This document shows, piece by piece, positions 2,784-25,760 of a DNA stretch of 49,174 nt. Numbering within the stretch: position 1 is the first letter of the stretch; every line of letters starts with the position of its first letter. The position numbers and the translations under genes were made by a program. Below the pieces are notes generated by a model. The model saw nothing but the letters and a program-made list of their open reading frames with translations. It was not told where the DNA came from and ran no database searches. The stretch is from a virus. The stretch covers positions 1 to 49,174 of IMG/VR virus record IMGVR_UViG_3300027749_000165; one strand, given 5' to 3'.

Positions 2784-4619
2784 ATGGCACTAGAAACACA
2801 AGGCTATCAATTTCAGGCTACAACCCCTGATCTTTCGAGAGAATATCCCCTCACTTCGTTAAAGGCTTTGTCGTTTTCTGGTGGTGCAAATAGCCCATTA
2901 AATATTCAGCCACTTGCAGGATGGAAAGTAGAGTCAGCGCATCCTGAGCAGGTAACGGCAGGAATAACTCAAGGGGTTGGCGCAATTGGTAAGGGAATTA
3001 CGGCGGCATATCTTAGCAATAAAGAAAAAAAGGAGAAAGCTGATGCATTAGCTAAGTCTCAGGCTCGCGAGGATTTGTTGCTTGGACAAAAATACAAAGA
3101 AGAAGAAAAGCTCGCTAGAATTAGGGGAAAGTACGCACTTGATCATGCGGAACTAATGCAAGGAATTAAAGATAGGGTTCCAAAACAAACACAAACAGAA
3201 AAAGCATTTACAGATCTTGAACTGCCCCCGCTTAGTGCAGGAGATTCTTCTGAATCTTTATTGCCGCCATCGCCTGAAGTTGAACCAATTAATACTGGAC
3301 TTAATTTTAATGGTCTTCCAACAGAAGAAATTGATGGCTCAGGTCAACCTGCACCATCTGGGCTTAATTTAGATAATAAACCTCTTGGAGACATTACTAG
3401 TCCAGTTCCTCTTGCCGCCGCGCCATCAGCAACTGGAGAACAGGCACTGAATGCTCTTGGAAACATTGATTGGTCTAAGATGACTGCAAGTTTAGGAGTC
3501 GGAACAGGAGCAGGAGCATCACCTGTAAGTATTCCATCATCTCAACCAGATTGGCTTAGATCTCCTAAATCTGTAACTGGATCTCTTTCTAAACTTGGAG
3601 GAGTTGATAACGTAGATCTTCCTTTGCAAGATCAGTATTTTGCCGGAATGCAAAAGGGATTAGAACAAACTAAAGCTCCAACAATTCCTGCGTATGAGAG
3701 GCAGATGAATAAAAACTATAGATCTATTTCTGATCAACAGGCGCAAGACATCCATGACTATGCAGTATCTCATGGATATGATGCTCCAGTTCTTACTGGA
3801 CTTGGCGGAGGAATGACTGAAGTGAAATGGGCCAGCCCTGAGCAGACAGAGGCAAAAAAATCTCGCGAGGAAGCCGCTAGTGGTCGTCGCGAAATTCAAA
3901 CTCAAAATACACTCAACCGAGAAAGTGCAATGTTTCAAGGTCATCCAGCAATCAAAGCATTTACTGGAGCAAACGGAATGCAGCAATCTCTTCCTAGGTT
4001 TATTAAAGATTATGATGCTATTGTTAAAAACCCTGAAGGAGCTGGCATTTCTGACGTAGGACTCCTTGATATGTTTGCTCGCGCAGAGGGTGGAGGAAGA
4101 GTAACAGAGGGCCAAGCAAACTTAGCACTTGGATCTATGGGGCTTAAAGATAAGGCTATGCAGCTTGGGTACAAACTTGAGGGAGGAGATAGGCTTTCTC
4201 AAAATCAACGTGACCAAATGCTTCGTGTTATTGCGGAGGATCATGGGGTTCAAGTAGCTTTAGCCAATCAAGCTGTTCAAATGACTAGGAATAAGCTAAT
4301 TGATCAGGGAGTAACTAATGAACATAGTCTTCCCCAGCCTTATATTAAGGCAAAGACAAAGTGGGATGCATTAAACGAGATTACAGAAATGAAGAAAAAT
4401 GCATTAGCTATCCATGAACAGCAAAAACAAGCTGAAGCATCTGGAGATAAAAAAACAGCCAATGACCTTAAAAGGCAACTTGAAGACATTGGTAAGAGCG
4501 CAAAGGAACTTCGCTCAAAGATAGATAAATCAAAAAGCGCAATTATTAATATTGATGAGTTGGAAAATACTCCTCAAGGTTGGGGCGGTGGTGCATCAGG
4601 AATCCTCATCCAGCAGTAA
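2784..4619 (+). CDS. Putative internal virion protein, 611 aa
   Basis: This is a large hypothetical protein. Residues about 45-75 carry the SAHPE motif shared with the gene at 1357. The following region is charged and helical (NKEKKEKADALAKSQAREDLLL). The middle is Pro/Ser/Gly-rich, with no detectable domain. The C-terminal 250 residues are helical and highly charged and end in a coiled-coil-like stretch (EITEMKKNALAIHEQQKQAEASG is the core). It immediately precedes the giant polyvalent protein, whose ATG overlaps this stop (TAATG). Position and composition fit an ejected or internal core protein, but this is inference. Confidence 0.6.
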   Translation: MALETQGYQFQATTPDLSREYPLTSLKALSFSGGANSPLNIQPLAGWKVESAHPEQVTAGITQGVGAIGKGITAAYLSNKEKKEKADALAKSQAREDLLLGQKYKEEEKLARIRGKYALDHAELMQGIKDRVPKQTQTEKAFTDLELPPLSAGDSSESLLPPSPEVEPINTGLNFNGLPTEEIDGSGQPAPSGLNLDNKPLGDITSPVPLAAAPSATGEQALNALGNIDWSKMTASLGVGTGAGASPVSIPSSQPDWLRSPKSVTGSLSKLGGVDNVDLPLQDQYFAGMQKGLEQTKAPTIPAYERQMNKNYRSISDQQAQDIHDYAVSHGYDAPVLTGLGGGMTEVKWASPEQTEAKKSREEAASGRREIQTQNTLNRESAMFQGHPAIKAFTGANGMQQSLPRFIKDYDAIVKNPEGAGISDVGLLDMFARAEGGGRVTEGQANLALGSMGLKDKAMQLGYKLEGGDRLSQNQRDQMLRVIAEDHGVQVALANQAVQMTRNKLIDQGVTNEHSLPQPYIKAKTKWDALNEITEMKKNALAIHEQQKQAEASGDKKTANDLKRQLEDIGKSAKELRSKIDKSKSAIINIDELENTPQGWGGGASGILIQQ

Positions 4620-7600
4620 TGTCTTCAATAACAGATAATCCAGAACAATTTTTCAATGAACTAAGCAATACGAAGGAAGAAAAACCTTCTCCTGCTATAG
4701 TTCCAGAACCTCCATCTCCAGCGCAGGCTCCAGCAAAAGAAACATCTATAACGGAGAATCCATCTGCGTTTTTTGACAATCTATCAAAGCCCGTAGAGCC
4801 ATACAAAAAAGAGACTCCACAATCAGTATTTTTGGGTCAGGTTGCTGAAAAGAAAGCTCCAGAACTTGATACATTTGACATTGAATCATTAAATTCACTT
4901 CAGCCAGAGGAATTGCACGATGTTGCAATGGCTAGAAAAGACATTCCTTTGACTGATCAGCAGTTAAGGACTGCATACGATTTCCATAAGAATAAATCGT
5001 CATCTGACCAAAATTACGGGACACCTTCATCGTTGCGTGAGTTTATGGACATGACGAATCGATGGGCAGAGCCTATTGGTGAAGTCGGGAACGATGTGGC
5101 TCATACTTTATGGAGTGCTGCTAAAGGAGCTGGAAAGTTAGCCTACAGGACGGCTGATTTTGCGTTTGCTCCAGACATGAGTTTTGCTGAGAACAGGAAA
5201 TATTACACACCTGAGCAACAGGCAGAGCTTAAAAAGCAGCAAGATATAAAAAGAAAGTCCCTTGAGGATGCTTGGCAAAGTGCAGTAGATCCTATTATTG
5301 GGATGCCTGAAGAACTTGCTTGGACAGGAACAAAATTAGGCGCAGGTGGCATGGATTGGTATGACAGGGCCAGTGAAGCCGTTGGCCTTCAAGACCATGA
5401 AAAGAGTTTTCAGCATTTTAAGAATAGGCGTGCTGTTGAGTCGGCTCAGGCTCAATACTACATGGAACACCCTACTGCACTTGGAAGGACATTAGACCTT
5501 CCTATTGTAAAAAGCGGTCTTGAGGCTATTGTTAAACACGATATGCCTACCACTCAGGAGTGGATGGCATCACATCCAAACCTTTCTAGGGAGCAGGCAC
5601 AGGCAGAGCTAGACGCTATTGCAAAAGATCACGTTGAGACTCAATTAAGGGAAACTGAATCACGCATTGCTGCGACAGATCCAGATATTGCCACGGCATC
5701 TACATTCTTAGCCCCAGAGGGGATCGGAATGGGTACTATGGGCGCACTTGGAATGGGAGCAAGGGTAGCTAGTGAATTGACTCCAAAGATCGCTCAAGGG
5801 CTTAAATATTTTGGCAAGACGGACGCAGAAATAAATTCCATGCAGAATGCGGCTCAGATACTTCAAAGAGAGCAAAAGGCAAAGGCAGCTCAAGATATTA
5901 TGCAGCCATCTCTGCTTGAAAAGGCGGCAGGAGGGACTGCAAAGGCAATTGATTGGACTGGCGCACTTGCAAAAGGAATTACAGAAAAGATTCCCAAGCA
6001 AATACGTCCTTTTGTCCCATACGTTGCTGGAGGAACTGCCGGAGGATTGTATGGTCATGAGCAAGGACGCTCTGTGATTGGCGATGTGCTTCGTGGAATA
6101 GAGATTGCCGGACTTATGAAGGCTCCTGCATTAGTTCGTGATATTGAGGCAGCTAGGCGTATATCTGGAGGAGGCACTAAAGGCACATTTGAGACAATGG
6201 CTGGGTTTCCGAATGTCAGCGAGGGTGCTGCAAAGATACTTCGTTTTGGAGGCAAGAATGTTGATAACCTGTTAAGTAACGCCGCTGAATACGCAAAATC
6301 CGGCATACATGGGACAGCATTAGCCGTTGCAACTGGTGTATTAGATTCAGCTGATCCAGAGGAGATGAACAAACTTGTTTCCCAAGGTCTTATTTACAGC
6401 CTTGGAGGTCATGCCTTCCAACGAATTAAAGGAGGTCTTTCAGGCAAAGATCCTATCCTAGAGAAGCGCAAAAGGGCGCAGCAGGATGTTGACAATCTTC
6501 GTACATTCTCTGAGCTGTCGCCGGAATCTCAGAATACTTTGAAAGATGTCACTAGCTGGAACAATGTAGTAGAGAACCAGCAGCAGAAAGCTAATGACGC
6601 TCGCATTGCTTATCTTGACGCACTCCAAAGGGGTAGCAAAGACACTCCAGAGCTTAGAAATAAATGGCAGGCAGAAACAAATGCACTTTCTACTGTCATG
6701 CGTGCAAACGTCCAGACTCGTAATGAGTATGGACGGATCTTTGTTGACCAGCTATCGCGCAATACAAACTTAGCTAATGGCACGCTAAAGGCCGGACAGA
6801 ACAACGTAGGCGTTCACATTCTAACTCCAAAACAGATTTTTGATAAGTTCCGCCAAGACCCAGCTAACGCAGGAAAGAGCGATGCAGATGTGCAGGAGGC
6901 AGCAAGCCAAGCTGGGTTTTATAGCTCTCCAGATGGCGCAATTGAATACAAGTCAGGAATGGGAATGGAAGCACCCAAAAAAGACTTGGTTTTTGATAGA
7001 ACAAAGCCATCAATTGTAATTAATGCCGATCACCTGAAGGCTCGCATGAAGATATTTGGTGAATCTGCCAACCAAGCACTGAATCATGAGTTTGGGCATC
7101 ATATCAGCAATATTCCAGAGTTCCGCGAAGCAAATAAAGATGCTGAGGCATTGCTTTTTAGCCAAGAAATAAAAGACCCATCTGGTGCTGTAGTATCAAC
7201 AACTTCAGGAAGGTATAGCCCGAAGGATCTCGTAGATATGTACGAGAACAACTACATGAAGGGTAAATCACCAGAGCAAATAAAGCAGCTTTCTGAGTTA
7301 GCTGGCCTTTGGGATCATTCTCGCCAAGCATTGGATGAAAATGCCGTTGCCGCATACATGAAGGAAGAGATCCTAGCAGATCTTAACTTAGAGACTCTTT
7401 CAAACCATCTTGGTAAAGATCTTGATAGTGGAACACTACATCTAATGGATCTTGCACGCCTCAAGACAAAGAAGAACCTACTAGATAGGGCTGTTAACAA
7501 GTTTGCCGGACTTGGAGGAAAGGGAGATCCTGTATCAGCTCTTACTGGGGCAGAATTTTCTCCAGAAGTATTAGCAGCAAATAGGCAGGCCGTTCGCGCA

Positions 7601-10600
7601 CTGCAATCGCTTCAGGGAGAAGTTTCTCCTGCTGTAGCAGCTCCAGACGCACCAAAGATTAGCAGGGCGGAGATGATGAAGAACCGAGCCTTGCAGGAAC
7701 GTGCAAAATACAGCGGTCTATTCAAGACCAAGGTACAAGCACAAGTTTACGATGCTGCTGGGAAGCCCGTAGGTGTGCCTGTAGACATCGAAAACATAAA
7801 TGCATCCGAAGGGTCATGGCAGAACAAAAATGGATCTTTGAGGCAGGTTACGGGCTATGGTCAACGTCCTGACGAGGCGATGGGCGTGCAAATCCCAGAG
7901 GGTGGGTCATTAGTGGTCGGAAGGCAGATAGTCCGGCAGGCCGATGGGGTGACACCTGTGCTAATGGAGCCAAAGGAAGCAAAGCAGCTTCAGAAAGATA
8001 GGGCTAGGGTAGTGCGTGACGCTTTAAACACGCCGGACGCTGGCGCACCTAACCGATTTGAACCTACAGGCGATCCAGACGGCACATGGAGGGGTACATT
8101 TACGCCGCTGCAAATTGAGGCAATCAAGAATCTTCCAGAGGGCATTGTTCCTAAGTCTGTAAAGGAAAAGATGCTTAAAATAAATGATTTGATCGTTAAG
8201 GGAGATGGTTCACGCATTCTAGCGGATTATGCAGCAATGATGAATGATAATGGTCGTTACACGCCATATTCTGCAAAGATCTATGACCTTGTTCCGATTG
8301 GTATGCACCTTTCCAAAGATGGTCACTTCCTTGCTACAACGATTTCTGTAGGCAGGATGTTCGATAAGTTGAATAAATGGAGCGAGCGTATGCCTGCTCG
8401 ACTTTCGCCTTGGAACGGAAGCAAGGACGCATTCTTCAAAGAATTCACGCAGACGTATCTAAAGAATTGGCAGAACGGATTAGCCGGAGAGACTGGACTT
8501 GGCGGAACGCCAGCCGAAGCATTTGCCAAGAAAAACATCTTCAATGATTTCTTGAACCTTACTACAAAAGACGCAGCACCTCTTAATCCAGACCGCACAA
8601 GGACACCTCGTCAAAGGGGTGACGTTCGTGGAAAGGACATTGATCGTACAATCATGTCTGTCCGCTTGGATCACATTACGGAGCTGATGGACAACGAACA
8701 CGCTCCAAAGGTTCCAGTCAGCTACCAGAAAGCAAAGTTCAACATGATGCCAAAGCCAGAGGAAGGCGAGGAAGCCATAAAGCCTCTAACTTTTGCACCA
8801 AAGGGAGAGCAGCCTGCGCTTACGCCGGAGATACTTAAAGGCATTACGGCTACGCACATTGCCCCAACACAACAAGTTGGAAATCAAGCCATTCAAGAAA
8901 TATCCAAGAAATATGTAGAATCTGCCGGAATACCTCACGATCCCCACCAAGCCTCAGTTCCTGTTAACGAAGAAATCGCTAAGAGAATAGCTGATTTTTA
9001 CCAACAACAACAAGACAGCCCAAATGATCCTGCTGTTAAAAAAGCGTATACATCACTGGCTAATGAGGTTGTTGATCAGTGGAAAGCGTTTGAACAGAAT
9101 GGATATACGGCAGAGCCGTGGACTGAAAAAGGTCAGCCATACGCTAATTCTAAAGAAATGATGGAAGATGTGCGAAACAACAAGCATATCTATTATTTTA
9201 CAACTGAAAGCGGATACGGAGAATCAGGAATTACGGACAAAATGCGTCAAGAGAATCCAATGCTTTCAGCTAGTGGCGTTGATTTTGGAAACGCAAAGAA
9301 TGTTCCAGCAAATGATGTGTTCCGAGTTGTCCATGACATAGTTGGTCACGGTGCTAATGGTTACGAATTTGGGCCAAAGGGAGAATTCAATGCATATCTT
9401 GAACACAGCAGAATGTTCAGCCAAGACGCAAAGCCTGCTCTTGCCGCAGAGACATTAGCTCAAAATAGCTGGGTAAATTATGGGCCGCATCTTCGCGACC
9501 AAGCTGGAAATCTTCCCAAGAAGGGTGAGTCAGGATTTATTCCAGTTACAGAAAGACCATTTGCCGAACAAAAGAATGTCATCATCCCTAAAGAAATTCT
9601 TGATGAAGTTGATAAGTATTCACAAGAACAAAAGACCATGCAGCAAAACGGAATTAGCTTCATGCCAGCTAATAACGAAAAGCAAGAGGTTCAATTTAAG
9701 TCTAAGCCAAAAAAAGGATCTGTAAGCGGACGCACGTTTGATCTTGTCCATTTTGGATCTTATGGCCTGAAGGAGACTAGCCCAAAGAAGATGGGCAAGG
9801 CATACGCCACGAAAACGGATCTTAGCGGAGCTGATAAGACATATTTCTATGTCAATGGCACAGATTACGAGTCACAGATTTCTGGCGGCAATCCATACAC
9901 CGCAAAGGTAGACGGGAATAGCATTTACGATTTATCCATCGATCCGCTTAAAGTCACTGGGACAATGAATCGTCTTAAAATGGATCAAGCTATCCAGAAA
10001 GCTGGATATGCAGGCTATTACAGCCCCAAGAAGTGGAGTGGATCTGGCTTTGACGCAGTTGCAATGTTCAAGCCTGTCAAGGTGACTGAAGCCGAGCCAT
10101 CGGATATTTATTCTAAGCGAAAGCTGGCGGCTATCAACAAAGGAAAGAAGACATCAGAGGCTCCTGATTATGCGGCGGCTGATGCGGCATGGGAGCAAAG
10201 GAAAGGCGGAATGCAATTCATGCCATCCCGCGAGGAAGAGCCTGAGCGCATTAAGGAAGCTACCTACACCAATCCTCGCACTGGCAAGGTATCTCGCGGC
10301 GAAACGCACCTTATTGCTAATCCTAACGCACCACAGGAGGCTACAGACCGCGAATCGCCTGCTTATGGCTTTGAGACTGACAAGGGACGCATAGTTGACA
10401 GGAATGAAGCGTACAACATCGCGCAGGAGGCTGGTCAGCTAAAGGAGCCGACTAGTGAGGATGAGAAGTTTCATGCTGATCGCGGAGTATTGCACAGCGG
10501 GATGTATGAGCCGAAAGGAATCTCCTTCATGCCTGCCGCCGGAGAGTCAAAGCCAGTTCCTACGCAAGAGGAGCTGGATGCAATGAAGGCTAGATTGCCT

Positions 10601-12007
10601 AAATATCGTCCTCAATTAATCCAATCCCCCATAAACAAAGATCGTTTCAAGATTAATATACGAGACGATAAAAATGAGGTGGTTGGATTTGGAACAGGTG
10701 CATACGACCCAACTGAAAACAGGCTAAATATAGAGCAAACGATGGTATATCCTGACTATCGGAAGCAAGGATATGGCGAAGCGTTGTATCGTGAGATTGC
10801 AAAGCACGCTCAATCCCTTGGTGCTGACTCCTTGTACAGTGAGGAAGTAAGCGATCCCGCAGAAAAGGTGCGCGAGAAACTTTTCCCGACAACATTAGAA
10901 AGAGGCGAGCGTGCAGATGAAAGGGCTATGGAAAGCGCAGTCCCATCCGGCATCTCTTTCATGCCTAAGAGCGATGAGCCAGACATCAGCGAAGAAGGCC
11001 ATGTATTTCCAAAAGACCTTTCCAAGCCTTTTGAATTTACTCCAAGGATTGCTATGCACTTCATGCCTGCTTCAGAAGAAGTAGATTGGAAAGACTATAT
11101 GCATCTTCCAACTATAGCACTAGCAGCTGATCGAATGGGTATAGGACAGGCTTATGTTGGCCCTACTGGAGCCAAGCAACCATTAAGCGTAAAATCAGAA
11201 GGAGGCGCAGGGTTCTCTACACTTTACAGGGACGAAAAACATAACCCGATTTGGGCGTTCTCTACATTACAAGCAGCAAAGAATTTCCTTAAAAGAATCA
11301 ATGATGTAGCCAATGAATTTAAAACAGAGTCGGTGCTTGTTTCTCCAACTCTTCTTGCTCCAGACAATCATCTAAAGAATCAGACAGGTCAACTTGGCTA
11401 TGTAGAAGCCTTGGAAGCCGCGATGAAAGCTAAAATGGTAAAAGAAACAGATCTCACAAAGCAAATAAACGAGATCATAAAAAGAATTTCCGAATCAAAG
11501 TCAGCAAAAGCTAAAGAGGCTACAAAAGCATTGGAAGGAATTACTACTTTTAAACAATTTGCACAGGCTGTAAGAGATAAGTCATTTAATTTTGGTGCTG
11601 CCGAATGGATCATGAAGAAAGCAGCGCAGAAAAAGCTGCCGATTACAGCTAAGGAGCTAGATCAAATGGGTATTTTGCCATCTCAGATTGCAAAGGACTT
11701 AGCGCATGAAGGGTATTATGAACTGCCTACATATTCAATGGTTTCATTGTTTGAAGTTCCAAAAGATCAAAAACCTGAAAAGGGAAATTTCCACAATTCG
11801 TACCCCTATATTGTACGAGGCAAATCCATTGGATATCTTAAACAAATTATTAATTTGGCCCAAGCAACCAAAGAGCCAAAGATATTTACCAAAAAAGGAA
11901 ATATTACCGCTCAACCATTAATGACCGTGATGCCTATACTTGACTCTGAACTAATAAACAAGGCATTATCCACTTTACAGGCATACGACCCTAAAACTAA
12001 CAAATAA
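4619..12007 (+). CDS. Giant multidomain polyvalent protein (2462 aa)
   Basis: The start at 4619 is coupled to the previous stop (TAATG). An in-frame ATG at 4580 would overlap the upstream gene. The N-terminus duplicates SIT(D/E)NPxxFFxxLS (residues 3-15 and about 41-53). A Gly-rich hydrophobic stretch lies near residues 460-500. A zincin HEFGHH is at 823-828. Residues about 1392-1680 form a module with H-D-x-x-G-H at 1572-1577 and an ET-x-x-QNSWVN stretch, known to me from other phage polyvalent proteins. Residues about 1700-1820 resemble an ADP-ribosyltransferase-like module (weak). Residues 1869-1969 carry the phage GRxVDRxEA module. Residues 1972-2113 are a GNAT fold with R-K-Q-G-Y-G at 2048-2053. 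The last 300 residues are unassigned. FMP motifs at residues 1681, 1867, 1970, 2114 and 2148 mark the boundaries. It is probably packaged and injected. Confidence 0.8.
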   Translation: MSSITDNPEQFFNELSNTKEEKPSPAIVPEPPSPAQAPAKETSITENPSAFFDNLSKPVEPYKKETPQSVFLGQVAEKKAPELDTFDIESLNSLQPEELHDVAMARKDIPLTDQQLRTAYDFHKNKSSSDQNYGTPSSLREFMDMTNRWAEPIGEVGNDVAHTLWSAAKGAGKLAYRTADFAFAPDMSFAENRKYYTPEQQAELKKQQDIKRKSLEDAWQSAVDPIIGMPEELAWTGTKLGAGGMDWYDRASEAVGLQDHEKSFQHFKNRRAVESAQAQYYMEHPTALGRTLDLPIVKSGLEAIVKHDMPTTQEWMASHPNLSREQAQAELDAIAKDHVETQLRETESRIAATDPDIATASTFLAPEGIGMGTMGALGMGARVASELTPKIAQGLKYFGKTDAEINSMQNAAQILQREQKAKAAQDIMQPSLLEKAAGGTAKAIDWTGALAKGITEKIPKQIRPFVPYVAGGTAGGLYGHEQGRSVIGDVLRGIEIAGLMKAPALVRDIEAARRISGGGTKGTFETMAGFPNVSEGAAKILRFGGKNVDNLLSNAAEYAKSGIHGTALAVATGVLDSADPEEMNKLVSQGLIYSLGGHAFQRIKGGLSGKDPILEKRKRAQQDVDNLRTFSELSPESQNTLKDVTSWNNVVENQQQKANDARIAYLDALQRGSKDTPELRNKWQAETNALSTVMRANVQTRNEYGRIFVDQLSRNTNLANGTLKAGQNNVGVHILTPKQIFDKFRQDPANAGKSDADVQEAASQAGFYSSPDGAIEYKSGMGMEAPKKDLVFDRTKPSIVINADHLKARMKIFGESANQALNHEFGHHISNIPEFREANKDAEALLFSQEIKDPSGAVVSTTSGRYSPKDLVDMYENNYMKGKSPEQIKQLSELAGLWDHSRQALDENAVAAYMKEEILADLNLETLSNHLGKDLDSGTLHLMDLARLKTKKNLLDRAVNKFAGLGGKGDPVSALTGAEFSPEVLAANRQAVRALQSLQGEVSPAVAAPDAPKISRAEMMKNRALQERAKYSGLFKTKVQAQVYDAAGKPVGVPVDIENINASEGSWQNKNGSLRQVTGYGQRPDEAMGVQIPEGGSLVVGRQIVRQADGVTPVLMEPKEAKQLQKDRARVVRDALNTPDAGAPNRFEPTGDPDGTWRGTFTPLQIEAIKNLPEGIVPKSVKEKMLKINDLIVKGDGSRILADYAAMMNDNGRYTPYSAKIYDLVPIGMHLSKDGHFLATTISVGRMFDKLNKWSERMPARLSPWNGSKDAFFKEFTQTYLKNWQNGLAGETGLGGTPAEAFAKKNIFNDFLNLTTKDAAPLNPDRTRTPRQRGDVRGKDIDRTIMSVRLDHITELMDNEHAPKVPVSYQKAKFNMMPKPEEGEEAIKPLTFAPKGEQPALTPEILKGITATHIAPTQQVGNQAIQEISKKYVESAGIPHDPHQASVPVNEEIAKRIADFYQQQQDSPNDPAVKKAYTSLANEVVDQWKAFEQNGYTAEPWTEKGQPYANSKEMMEDVRNNKHIYYFTTESGYGESGITDKMRQENPMLSASGVDFGNAKNVPANDVFRVVHDIVGHGANGYEFGPKGEFNAYLEHSRMFSQDAKPALAAETLAQNSWVNYGPHLRDQAGNLPKKGESGFIPVTERPFAEQKNVIIPKEILDEVDKYSQEQKTMQQNGISFMPANNEKQEVQFKSKPKKGSVSGRTFDLVHFGSYGLKETSPKKMGKAYATKTDLSGADKTYFYVNGTDYESQISGGNPYTAKVDGNSIYDLSIDPLKVTGTMNRLKMDQAIQKAGYAGYYSPKKWSGSGFDAVAMFKPVKVTEAEPSDIYSKRKLAAINKGKKTSEAPDYAAADAAWEQRKGGMQFMPSREEEPERIKEATYTNPRTGKVSRGETHLIANPNAPQEATDRESPAYGFETDKGRIVDRNEAYNIAQEAGQLKEPTSEDEKFHADRGVLHSGMYEPKGISFMPAAGESKPVPTQEELDAMKARLPKYRPQLIQSPINKDRFKINIRDDKNEVVGFGTGAYDPTENRLNIEQTMVYPDYRKQGYGEALYREIAKHAQSLGADSLYSEEVSDPAEKVREKLFPTTLERGERADERAMESAVPSGISFMPKSDEPDISEEGHVFPKDLSKPFEFTPRIAMHFMPASEEVDWKDYMHLPTIALAADRMGIGQAYVGPTGAKQPLSVKSEGGAGFSTLYRDEKHNPIWAFSTLQAAKNFLKRINDVANEFKTESVLVSPTLLAPDNHLKNQTGQLGYVEALEAAMKAKMVKETDLTKQINEIIKRISESKSAKAKEATKALEGITTFKQFAQAVRDKSFNFGAAEWIMKKAAQKKLPITAKELDQMGILPSQIAKDLAHEGYYELPTYSMVSLFEVPKDQKPEKGNFHNSYPYIVRGKSIGYLKQIINLAQATKEPKIFTKKGNITAQPLMTVMPILDSELINKALSTLQAYDPKTNK

Positions 12008-13329: not shown

Positions 13330-14040
13330 ATGGATGAATCAATAAAGCATAAGCGAGGCGATATCAGAGATGACGGCAAAGTGTTTTGGGTATATTCCAA
13401 GAATCATGTCTCTGGTGAATGCTGGTTAAGTCCTGAAAAATTCCAAGAATACAAAGAAAACCAGAAAAAACATCGACACGATTGGTTTGTTAAAAATCAA
13501 GAGCAAAACAATCAGAATAAACGCAATTGGACTTCTACGAATCCAGAAAGAAAAATCCAAAACGATAGAAATTGGAGAAAGCAAAACATTGAAAAGGCAA
13601 ACGCATCTAACAAAAAATGGAGACAAAACAATCCTGATAAATGCTTGGAGCAACAAAGGGATTGGAGCAAACGGAATCCACAAAAACGGCGTGAATATTC
13701 AAGAGATTGGGCTGTAAGAAATCCTGAAAAGAGAAGCAAAATATTGTCAGAATGGAGGAGAAACAATCCTCAAAAAGCAAATTCTTATACCGCCAACCGA
13801 AGAGCATTGAAAAGATTTACCCCTATTATGATGCATCGTGATCATATTAAAATGATGGAGGTTTTTTATCAACAAAGCTCACGGGTTTCTTCATGTACGG
13901 GTATTCAACACAATGTTGATCATGTAATTCCTTTAACAAAGGGCGGATATCATATACCATCAAACCTTCAGGTTTTGCCTAAAAAAATTAATCAGAAGAA
14001 GTATAACAAACTCCCCCATGAATTGTCCCTCGCAGCTTAA
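13330..14040 (+). CDS. HNH endonuclease with tandem 15-residue repeats
   Basis: The 236-aa protein has three parts. Residues 1-45 (KRGDIRDDGKVFWVYSKN) form a short domain also found at the N-terminus of the HNH protein at 25053. The middle has six repeats of about 15 residues of the type (R/K)xWxxxNPxKxxxxx, probably DNA-binding helices. The C-terminus is an HNH fold (HNVDHVIPLTKGGYHIPSNLQVL, then N-x-K-K). The coding sequence is visibly more A-rich than its neighbours, as expected for a mobile free-standing homing endonuclease. It lies between the ATP-grasp-like gene and the gene at 14056. Confidence 0.8.
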   Translation: MDESIKHKRGDIRDDGKVFWVYSKNHVSGECWLSPEKFQEYKENQKKHRHDWFVKNQEQNNQNKRNWTSTNPERKIQNDRNWRKQNIEKANASNKKWRQNNPDKCLEQQRDWSKRNPQKRREYSRDWAVRNPEKRSKILSEWRRNNPQKANSYTANRRALKRFTPIMMHRDHIKMMEVFYQQSSRVSSCTGIQHNVDHVIPLTKGGYHIPSNLQVLPKKINQKKYNKLPHELSLAA

Positions 14041-24997: not shown

Positions 24998-25030
24998 AAG
25001 CCACAGGGAGTTGACGCTCCGAGTGGCTTC
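24998..25030. repeat. Inverted repeat downstream of rusA
   Basis: AAGCCAC and GTGGCTT flank GGGAGTTGACGCTCC, which itself pairs as GGAG/CTCC, giving a compact two-part hairpin immediately after the rusA stop. It could be a weak terminator (no T-tract), a processing site, or the site used by the downstream homing endonuclease. Confidence 0.5.
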
Positions 25031-25052
25031 TAACCTCAACCATATCATTACT

Positions 25053-25760
25053 ATGACCGAAGCTGTTCAAACTTTAGAGCCTCCCGCGCATCGTTACAAG
25101 CGTGGAGATGTACGAGAAGACGGATTAATTTTTTGGGCTTATACACAGCATGGAAAATATCAAGAATGGGTATCTGAAAAAAGATTCCTAGACAGAAAAA
25201 CAAAACGAAAAGAATATCGTCATAAATACTATAAAAATAATAAAGAAACTGAAATACAAGGCCACAAAAAATACTATGCTATAAATAGGACTAATATCAT
25301 ACAAGGTATGAAAGAATACTATGTTAGAGATAGGGATAAGAGATTGTCAGATGGAAAGCAATATCGCGAAAAAAACAAATGCGAGATAAATAGAAGAAAC
25401 GTTATTTATTGTAAAAATAGACTAAAAACTGATGTATTATATAGACTGTCTCGTTCAGTTGGTAGTCTTATTAGAATCGCACTATTAAGCCAAAAATATA
25501 CCAAGAAAAGCAGAACACATGAAATACTTGGATGTTCATTTGAGTTTTTTAAAAACTATATAGAACAAAGGTTTCTTGACGGAATGACATGGGAAAATAG
25601 ATCCGAATGGCATCTTGATCATATTATTCCTGTATCTTTAGGAAAAACAGAAAAAGAGATTATAAAATTGAACCATTATACAAATTTTCGTCCACTATGG
25701 GCTAAAGAAAATATTGCTAAGGGCAATAAGCAGAACAAACAACTAGAACTAATAAAATGA
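25053..25760 (+). CDS. HNH homing endonuclease
   Basis: The 235-aa protein starts at ATG 25053; the upstream TTG at 25011 would sit in the inverted repeat. Residues about 15-35 (RYKRGDVREDGLIFWAYTQH) match the N-terminal piece of the HNH protein at 13330. The middle is a long basic helical region (KEYRHKYYKNNKETEIQGHK). The C-terminus is an HNH fold (EWHLDHIIPVSLGK, then N-x-R-P-L-W and ENIAKGNK). The gene is distinctly AT-rich compared with its neighbours and probably arrived by homing. Confidence 0.8.
   Translation: MTEAVQTLEPPAHRYKRGDVREDGLIFWAYTQHGKYQEWVSEKRFLDRKTKRKEYRHKYYKNNKETEIQGHKKYYAINRTNIIQGMKEYYVRDRDKRLSDGKQYREKNKCEINRRNVIYCKNRLKTDVLYRLSRSVGSLIRIALLSQKYTKKSRTHEILGCSFEFFKNYIEQRFLDGMTWENRSEWHLDHIIPVSLGKTEKEIIKLNHYTNFRPLWAKENIAKGNKQNKQLELIK

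Follow-up and report, generated by a model that had tools for sequence, protein, structure and literature searches.

Motif-bounded, exchangeable cassettes in a giant phage polyvalent protein: candidate processing sites whose spelling follows the carrier lineage

Related systems and the giant protein of the window

Toxins of the CDI and Rhs systems have one variable C-terminal toxin per protein and a near-universal border motif, whereas the proteins described here have several borders per chain and a lineage-specific spelling of the motif. Polymorphic toxins (PMC3482391) resemble them in having a short border beside an exchangeable effector and peptidases that release the effector. The polyvalent proteins of phages and of conjugative elements (Iyer 2017, PMC5512222) likewise join a zincin to unrelated activities in one giant protein; such activities are GNAT in the present protein and ART-PolyVal in its relatives. 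Processing of polyvalent proteins by the zincin has already been proposed there; the sections of that study used here, the peptidase section included, describe no site motif, whereas the present proteins carry a motif at each border and its spelling is tied to the carrier lineage. No published description of a processing site or site code was found in the literature consulted.

Two further giant proteins were compared. The virion RNA polymerase of N4, a giant ejected podovirus protein, has an HExxH domain and flexible linkers, and the part of the report consulted (PMC12633501) describes no border motif. The DarB-like protein gp69 of JC1, a Bcep22-like phage, was detected in virions by mass spectrometry (PMC9144972). 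A PAPS reductase and small proteins precede its giant gene, as in the present locus; the likeness is one of gene order only. No FMP-type punctuation was found in JC1 gp69, FMP not being among its over-represented words. The resembling gene position suggests a virion location for the present protein as well.

The stretch of DNA analysed, here called the window, comprises 49,174 nucleotides of the IMG/VR virus record IMGVR_UViG_3300027749_000165. Its giant ORF starts with ATG at 4619, and an in-frame TTG is present at 4580. The layout is as follows; locus numbers (L001 and so on) denote the relatives described below.

4619–12004 (ORF to 12007), + strand: giant polyvalent protein, 2462 aa, from the ORF list and translation; similarly laid-out relatives are L001 and L149–L164.
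4619–8752, + strand: carrier (N-terminal region, zincin and core domain), residues 1–1378, terminated by FNMMP; zincin and core 78% identical to L001, downstream part different.
7085–7099, + strand: putative zincin active-site motif HEFGH, residues 823–827; both H and the E unchanged in all 22 relatives aligned, a downstream Glu invariant or nearly so, and sub-threshold Peptidase_M91/M78 matches in relatives.
8738–8752, + strand: FNMMP at the core end, residues 1374–1378; KLNFMP, IRNFMP or RWMP at the aligned position of relatives.
8753–9667, + strand: cassette 1, HDxxGH module, residues 1379–1683, terminated by GISFMP (FMP at 9659–9667); phrog_3170, cassette cluster shared with L015 and the L111/L113 group.
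9668–10225, + strand: cassette 2, perhaps ART-like, residues 1684–1869, terminated by GMQFMP; L015 holds a homologous whole cassette, likewise motif-bounded.
10226–10534, + strand: cassette 3, unclassified, residues 1870–1972, terminated by GISFMP; no Pfam family, a similar stretch (by eye) before TGIQFMP in L149.
10535–10966, + strand: cassette 4, GNAT acetyltransferase, residues 1973–2116, terminated by GISFMP; PF00583, E 2.8e-9.
10967–11068, + strand: short spacer, residues 2117–2150, terminated by AMHFMP, from the translation.
11069–12004, + strand: cassette 5, C-terminal module, residues 2151–2462; cluster c6, which always lies immediately behind a motif in L108, L114, L126, L134 and L137.

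The initial annotation had noticed FMP at residues 1681, 1867, 1970, 2114 and 2148 and a related FNMMP at 1374, and these positions were confirmed (nucleotide starts 9659, 10217, 10526, 10958 and 11060 for FMP, 8738 for FNMMP). From its composition, 0.145 FMP would be expected in the giant protein against the five seen, and two or more occurred in only 178 of 20,000 shuffles. FMP was absent from the 36 other window ORFs checked. Internal duplication as the origin of the repeats was ruled out, as the segments between the motifs are mutually unrelated: motifs aside, the blastp alignments between them were all short, and their E values were about 0.01 or higher. As for the modules named between the motifs, the GNAT at 1970–2114 and the HDxxGH module before 1681 (phrog_3170, E 3e-15) stood, the ART-like assignment of 1684–1867 was doubtful (hhalign probability 37%), and no family was found for the "DRxEA" stretch at 1870–1970. 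The protein thus holds several domains of disparate activity (GNAT, zincin motif and HDxxGH) in one large polypeptide, which is how Iyer 2017 delimits polyvalent proteins. Domain families of known polyvalent proteins recur in same-core relatives as ART-PolyVal cassettes; the window's own ART match is weak.

Elsewhere in the window, two ORFs (13330–14040 and 25011–25760) looked like HNH endonucleases by eye and had short basic repeats (..NP.K..); one of them lies close downstream of the giant gene.

The motif in relatives and the exchange of cassettes

Relatives were collected with the zincin/core region as a bait that is blind to the motif, and about 60 phage loci were obtained in all from uncultured phage sequences. 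Loci L003–L012 had been retrieved by a pattern containing FMP; therefore, only their other motifs were counted. A search with a core-domain alignment that omits the motif (A2) retrieved 46 loci, in most of which [FYW]MP stood at the core end, typically as RWMPA, with extra copies downstream and almost none upstream. After the core end, 90 copies of [FYW]MP were counted in 33,787 aa (3.2 expected) versus 3 in 37,206 aa before it, and R[FYW]MP occurred 118 times in the giant ORFs versus 0 times in the remaining plus-strand ORFs (200 aa or longer) of the same loci; as many of L102–L133 are close relatives, such counts exceed the number of independent events. Among 119 distinct contexts, collected with a search pattern that itself admitted only these letters, P was invariant and was preceded by M or L, in front of which stood F, W or Y, or M in two cases. 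The consensus first given, (I/M)(S/Q/H)FMP(A/S/K), describes the window's lineage; more generally, the motif reads x-[FYWM]-[ML]-P with a small or acidic residue after it.

The motif coincided with the places where relatives stop being alike. L001 and the window share 59% identity in the N-terminal part and 78% in zincin and core, and the similarity stops within about 40 residues of FNMMP; the later modules of L001 are bounded by GISFMP, QIAFMP, DISFMP and DIRFMP. A module of about 560 aa between two FMPs in L001 matched a module between two FLPEs in L049. When the proteins were cut at the motif, 164 segments and 20 multi-member clusters resulted, several of the clusters being near-constant in length (456, 259, 241, 180 and 56 aa) and occurring in varied orders and combinations among the loci. 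With the motifs masked, 38 of 101 homology-block ends had a motif nearby, versus 13.4 by chance. Module shuffling at FMP, raised in the initial annotation as something to look for in relatives, was thereby found, and by these comparisons the cassettes delimited by the motif recombine as units.

The surroundings of the motifs also look flexible, disorder-promoting residues being commoner in their flanks than at random positions. An AlphaFold2 model of a cassette region was weak (mean pLDDT 46), and in it the motifs fall in low-confidence coil.

In L112 and most of L103–L133, the same small domain (GYR..Y.P.GKLIGIY, cluster c0) was seen in the ~100 aa that follow the core-end motif and again in the ~56 aa that close the protein. 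The cassettes of these proteins are therefore bracketed by two copies of it.

Spelling of the site and its candidate reader

The letters of the site differed between lineages. In the window's lineage (L148–L164) the site is mostly [Q/N/S]F[M/L]P, and in the L112 lineage mostly R[F/W/Y]MP; R before the aromatic residue was found at 0 of 53 sites in the former versus 46 of 63 in the latter, ART ends excluded (Fisher p 3e-18, phylogeny ignored). Homologous EVQSD cassettes even end differently in different recipients, with GQ[LI]QFMP, GQIQFLP or GQIAFMP in the window's lineage, GQPRFMP in the L112 lineage and GQPMFLPE in L049. The residue after P was more uniform within proteins than expected (permutation p 0.0004, phylogeny ignored). 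In the sequences compared, the letters of the motif match the recipient protein and not the cassette, and this match to the host protein rather than to the preceding block suggests that a protease of the same protein reads the tag.

Such results bear on whether the peptide has a function at all. As a passive linker or relic of recombination, it would be a functionless by-product of cassettes joined at short similar stretches of DNA, and its coincidence with cassette borders and the Phe codons of the motif, all TTC in the window and L001, would agree with that. Copies of the motif, however, differ synonymously (Ser is AGC, TCC or TCT, and all four Pro codons are used); therefore, what is conserved is the peptide and not the DNA. 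A linker travelling with its cassette is also at odds with the EVQSD cassette ends and the residue after P, which vary with the recipient, and we regard the passive origin as very unlikely. The Phe codon itself is TTC in every FMP copy of the window (9659–11068) and of L001, TTT being at least as common in both genes; in other loci, TTT also occurs at the motif.

The codons speak similarly to the idea that translation starts internally at the Met of FMP, with several proteins made from one gene. That Met is ATG, and separate products would result. However, Shine-Dalgarno-like sequences preceded 21 of 138 motif ATGs versus 158 of 1470 other Met codons, which is no clear enrichment; the FLP versions have CTA or CTC as their Leu codon, other spellings contain no Met, and the conserved Pro and aromatic residue would be left unexplained. 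Internal initiation thus seems hardly credible.

We next consider the zincin. The HEFGH at residue 823, pointed out in the first annotation as a possible protease, was verified: H111, E112, H115 and E205 (numbering of the zincin alignment A3) were invariant in 22 proteins, that is, HExxH and a downstream Glu in the place of a zinc ligand. HExxH preceded the core in 25 of 25 relatives examined and lay N-terminal of the motif-bearing region in all core-family relatives checked. A PDB fold search with a weak AlphaFold2 model of zincin and core (mean pLDDT 55) gave no match at E 0.001 or better.

We propose a co-evolving recogniser because the sites are repeated, specific to the chain, placed at borders and flexible, and because their letters track the carrier; the zincin is the candidate because it was always seen with the FMP array and N-terminal of it. 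The chain would be a phage polyprotein in which the N-terminal carrier, conserved and equipped with a zincin protease, precedes serial, exchangeable effector cassettes. Flexible linkers would hold the site that bounds each cassette, x-[F/Y/W/M]-[M/L]-P-[small or acidic]. This site would be read by a cognate protease, for which the chain's own zincin is the likeliest choice, and cleavage there, whether in the virion or once the protein has been ejected, would separate the effectors from one another. The spelling would co-evolve with the carrier lineage, an incoming cassette keeping or gaining that of its recipient. We consider this model probable, and the layout has what a self-processed polyprotein shows, namely a putative protease and repeated specific sites between units in one chain. 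For the window, it predicts a carrier of ~1378 aa and products of ~305, 186, 103, 144, 34 and 312 aa. The initial annotation had offered protease sites and cassette-joining linkers as alternatives; both halves gained support and they are compatible, since modules swap at the motifs and the letters behave like the sites of a lineage-specific recogniser, from which we infer cleavage and the zincin as its enzyme. In the zincin processing put forward by Iyer et al. (PMC5512222), FMP-type sites would take the place of a substrate signal, which the consulted sections of that work do not describe.

The main rival is a tag for docking or handling without proteolysis. A short peptide of each cassette would attach to the carrier core, to the portal or to the ejection channel, and the chain would be packed or threaded unit by unit while remaining intact. 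All signs of a lineage-specific recogniser and the flexible flanks fit it, and the N4 virion RNA polymerase offers a precedent: in the portions of the sources consulted, this zincin-bearing giant is packaged uncut (PMC5512222) and works uncut with long flexible linkers (PMC12633501). The docking tag leaves unexplained, however, why an intact zincin is always found ahead of the motif-bearing part and why every border needs an invariant Pro after Met or Leu, and we judge it unlikely.

A delimiter that can be read in the sequence makes the processing model directly testable and supplies module borders for annotation, and unknown injected effectors could be found as the segments between delimiters. 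If lineage-specific cleavage is true, these phages would offer a natural collection of proteases, each with substrates that match it.

Other polyvalent proteins and phage records

A wider set of 80 loci was picked by the ART-PolyVal module. Their ART tails had many spellings, and the rule seen with FMP held in this set too, in spellings such as RYSL, RFAV, KSADR and TFSIA. In several proteins the own ART tail was among the most over-represented words (SNR, SADR, RFAV, TFS and FSN). With tandem ART modules excluded, the stretch in front of an ART module, itself part of the preceding module, was much closer to the protein's own ART tail than to the tails of other proteins (643 versus 419; the best of 20,000 permutations, which ignore phylogeny, reached 524). 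Tail words also recurred elsewhere in the same protein, with 32 four-letter recurrences versus a permutation mean of 3.8, some of which duplicated modules could account for. Neighbouring giant ORFs in a single phage can also be spelled alike, L055 and L056 being an example. HEx2-3H was present in 33 of 42 complete ART-bearing ORFs, and for six more, a different large ORF of the locus had HExxH; the motif was absent from three of the 42 and from the rest of the locus stretch read, a point against cleavage by the zincin. Shuffled proteins contained HExxH in 3% of cases.

We tentatively propose, as a serious possibility, that cleavage by cognate proteases is general among phage polyvalent proteins and takes place at sites of a lineage-specific dialect (FMP, FLPE, RYSL, RFAV, KSADR, TFSIA and others). 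The dialect would serve as an address code, in that a new effector cassette would be released only if it matched, and it would thereby shape which cassettes a phage can take up.

The zincin clade was tried as a predictor of spelling across all polyvalent proteins and did not hold. This accords with a site for another protease, either a phage prohead protease or a host protease, the zincin itself being an effector; the prohead protease gp245 of SPN3US cleaves head proteins according to the part of the source consulted (PMC10052503). The spelling could indeed co-vary with another gene of the same lineage, a counterpoint to cleavage by the zincin. A head protease should nevertheless have other substrates, and no other large plus-strand ORF of these loci contains R[FYW]MP, though a looser site is possible; a host protease would not account for the lineage-specific spelling. 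We hold another protease to be decidedly unlikely and retain the zincin as the candidate.

A scan of genome contigs gave no relative. With tblastn, only the HDxxGH module of the window protein matched phage records, mostly those of mycobacteriophages, and repeated FMP was not found in isolated phages with this module. The core of the FMP family was unmatched in the phage records; therefore, we offer no cultured phage with FMP punctuation. Among cultured phages of the wider kind, Pseudomonas phage F116 has two HExxH motifs in gp60, together with an ART module whose end reads PDILFSR. Three of the records (OL906435, OQ594354 and PP438419) are each exactly 65,014 bases long, bear different cyanobacterial hosts in their names and gave identical matches, and may therefore be one phage. 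Limnohabitans phage DC33 (L098) is filed under Inoviridae, yet it has a 39-kb genome, a 9.4-kb giant gene and podovirus-like neighbours. The giant genes of L094, L095 and L099 are annotated as "lysin" or "crystallin beta/gamma motif-containing protein", which are unlikely names for multi-domain giants.
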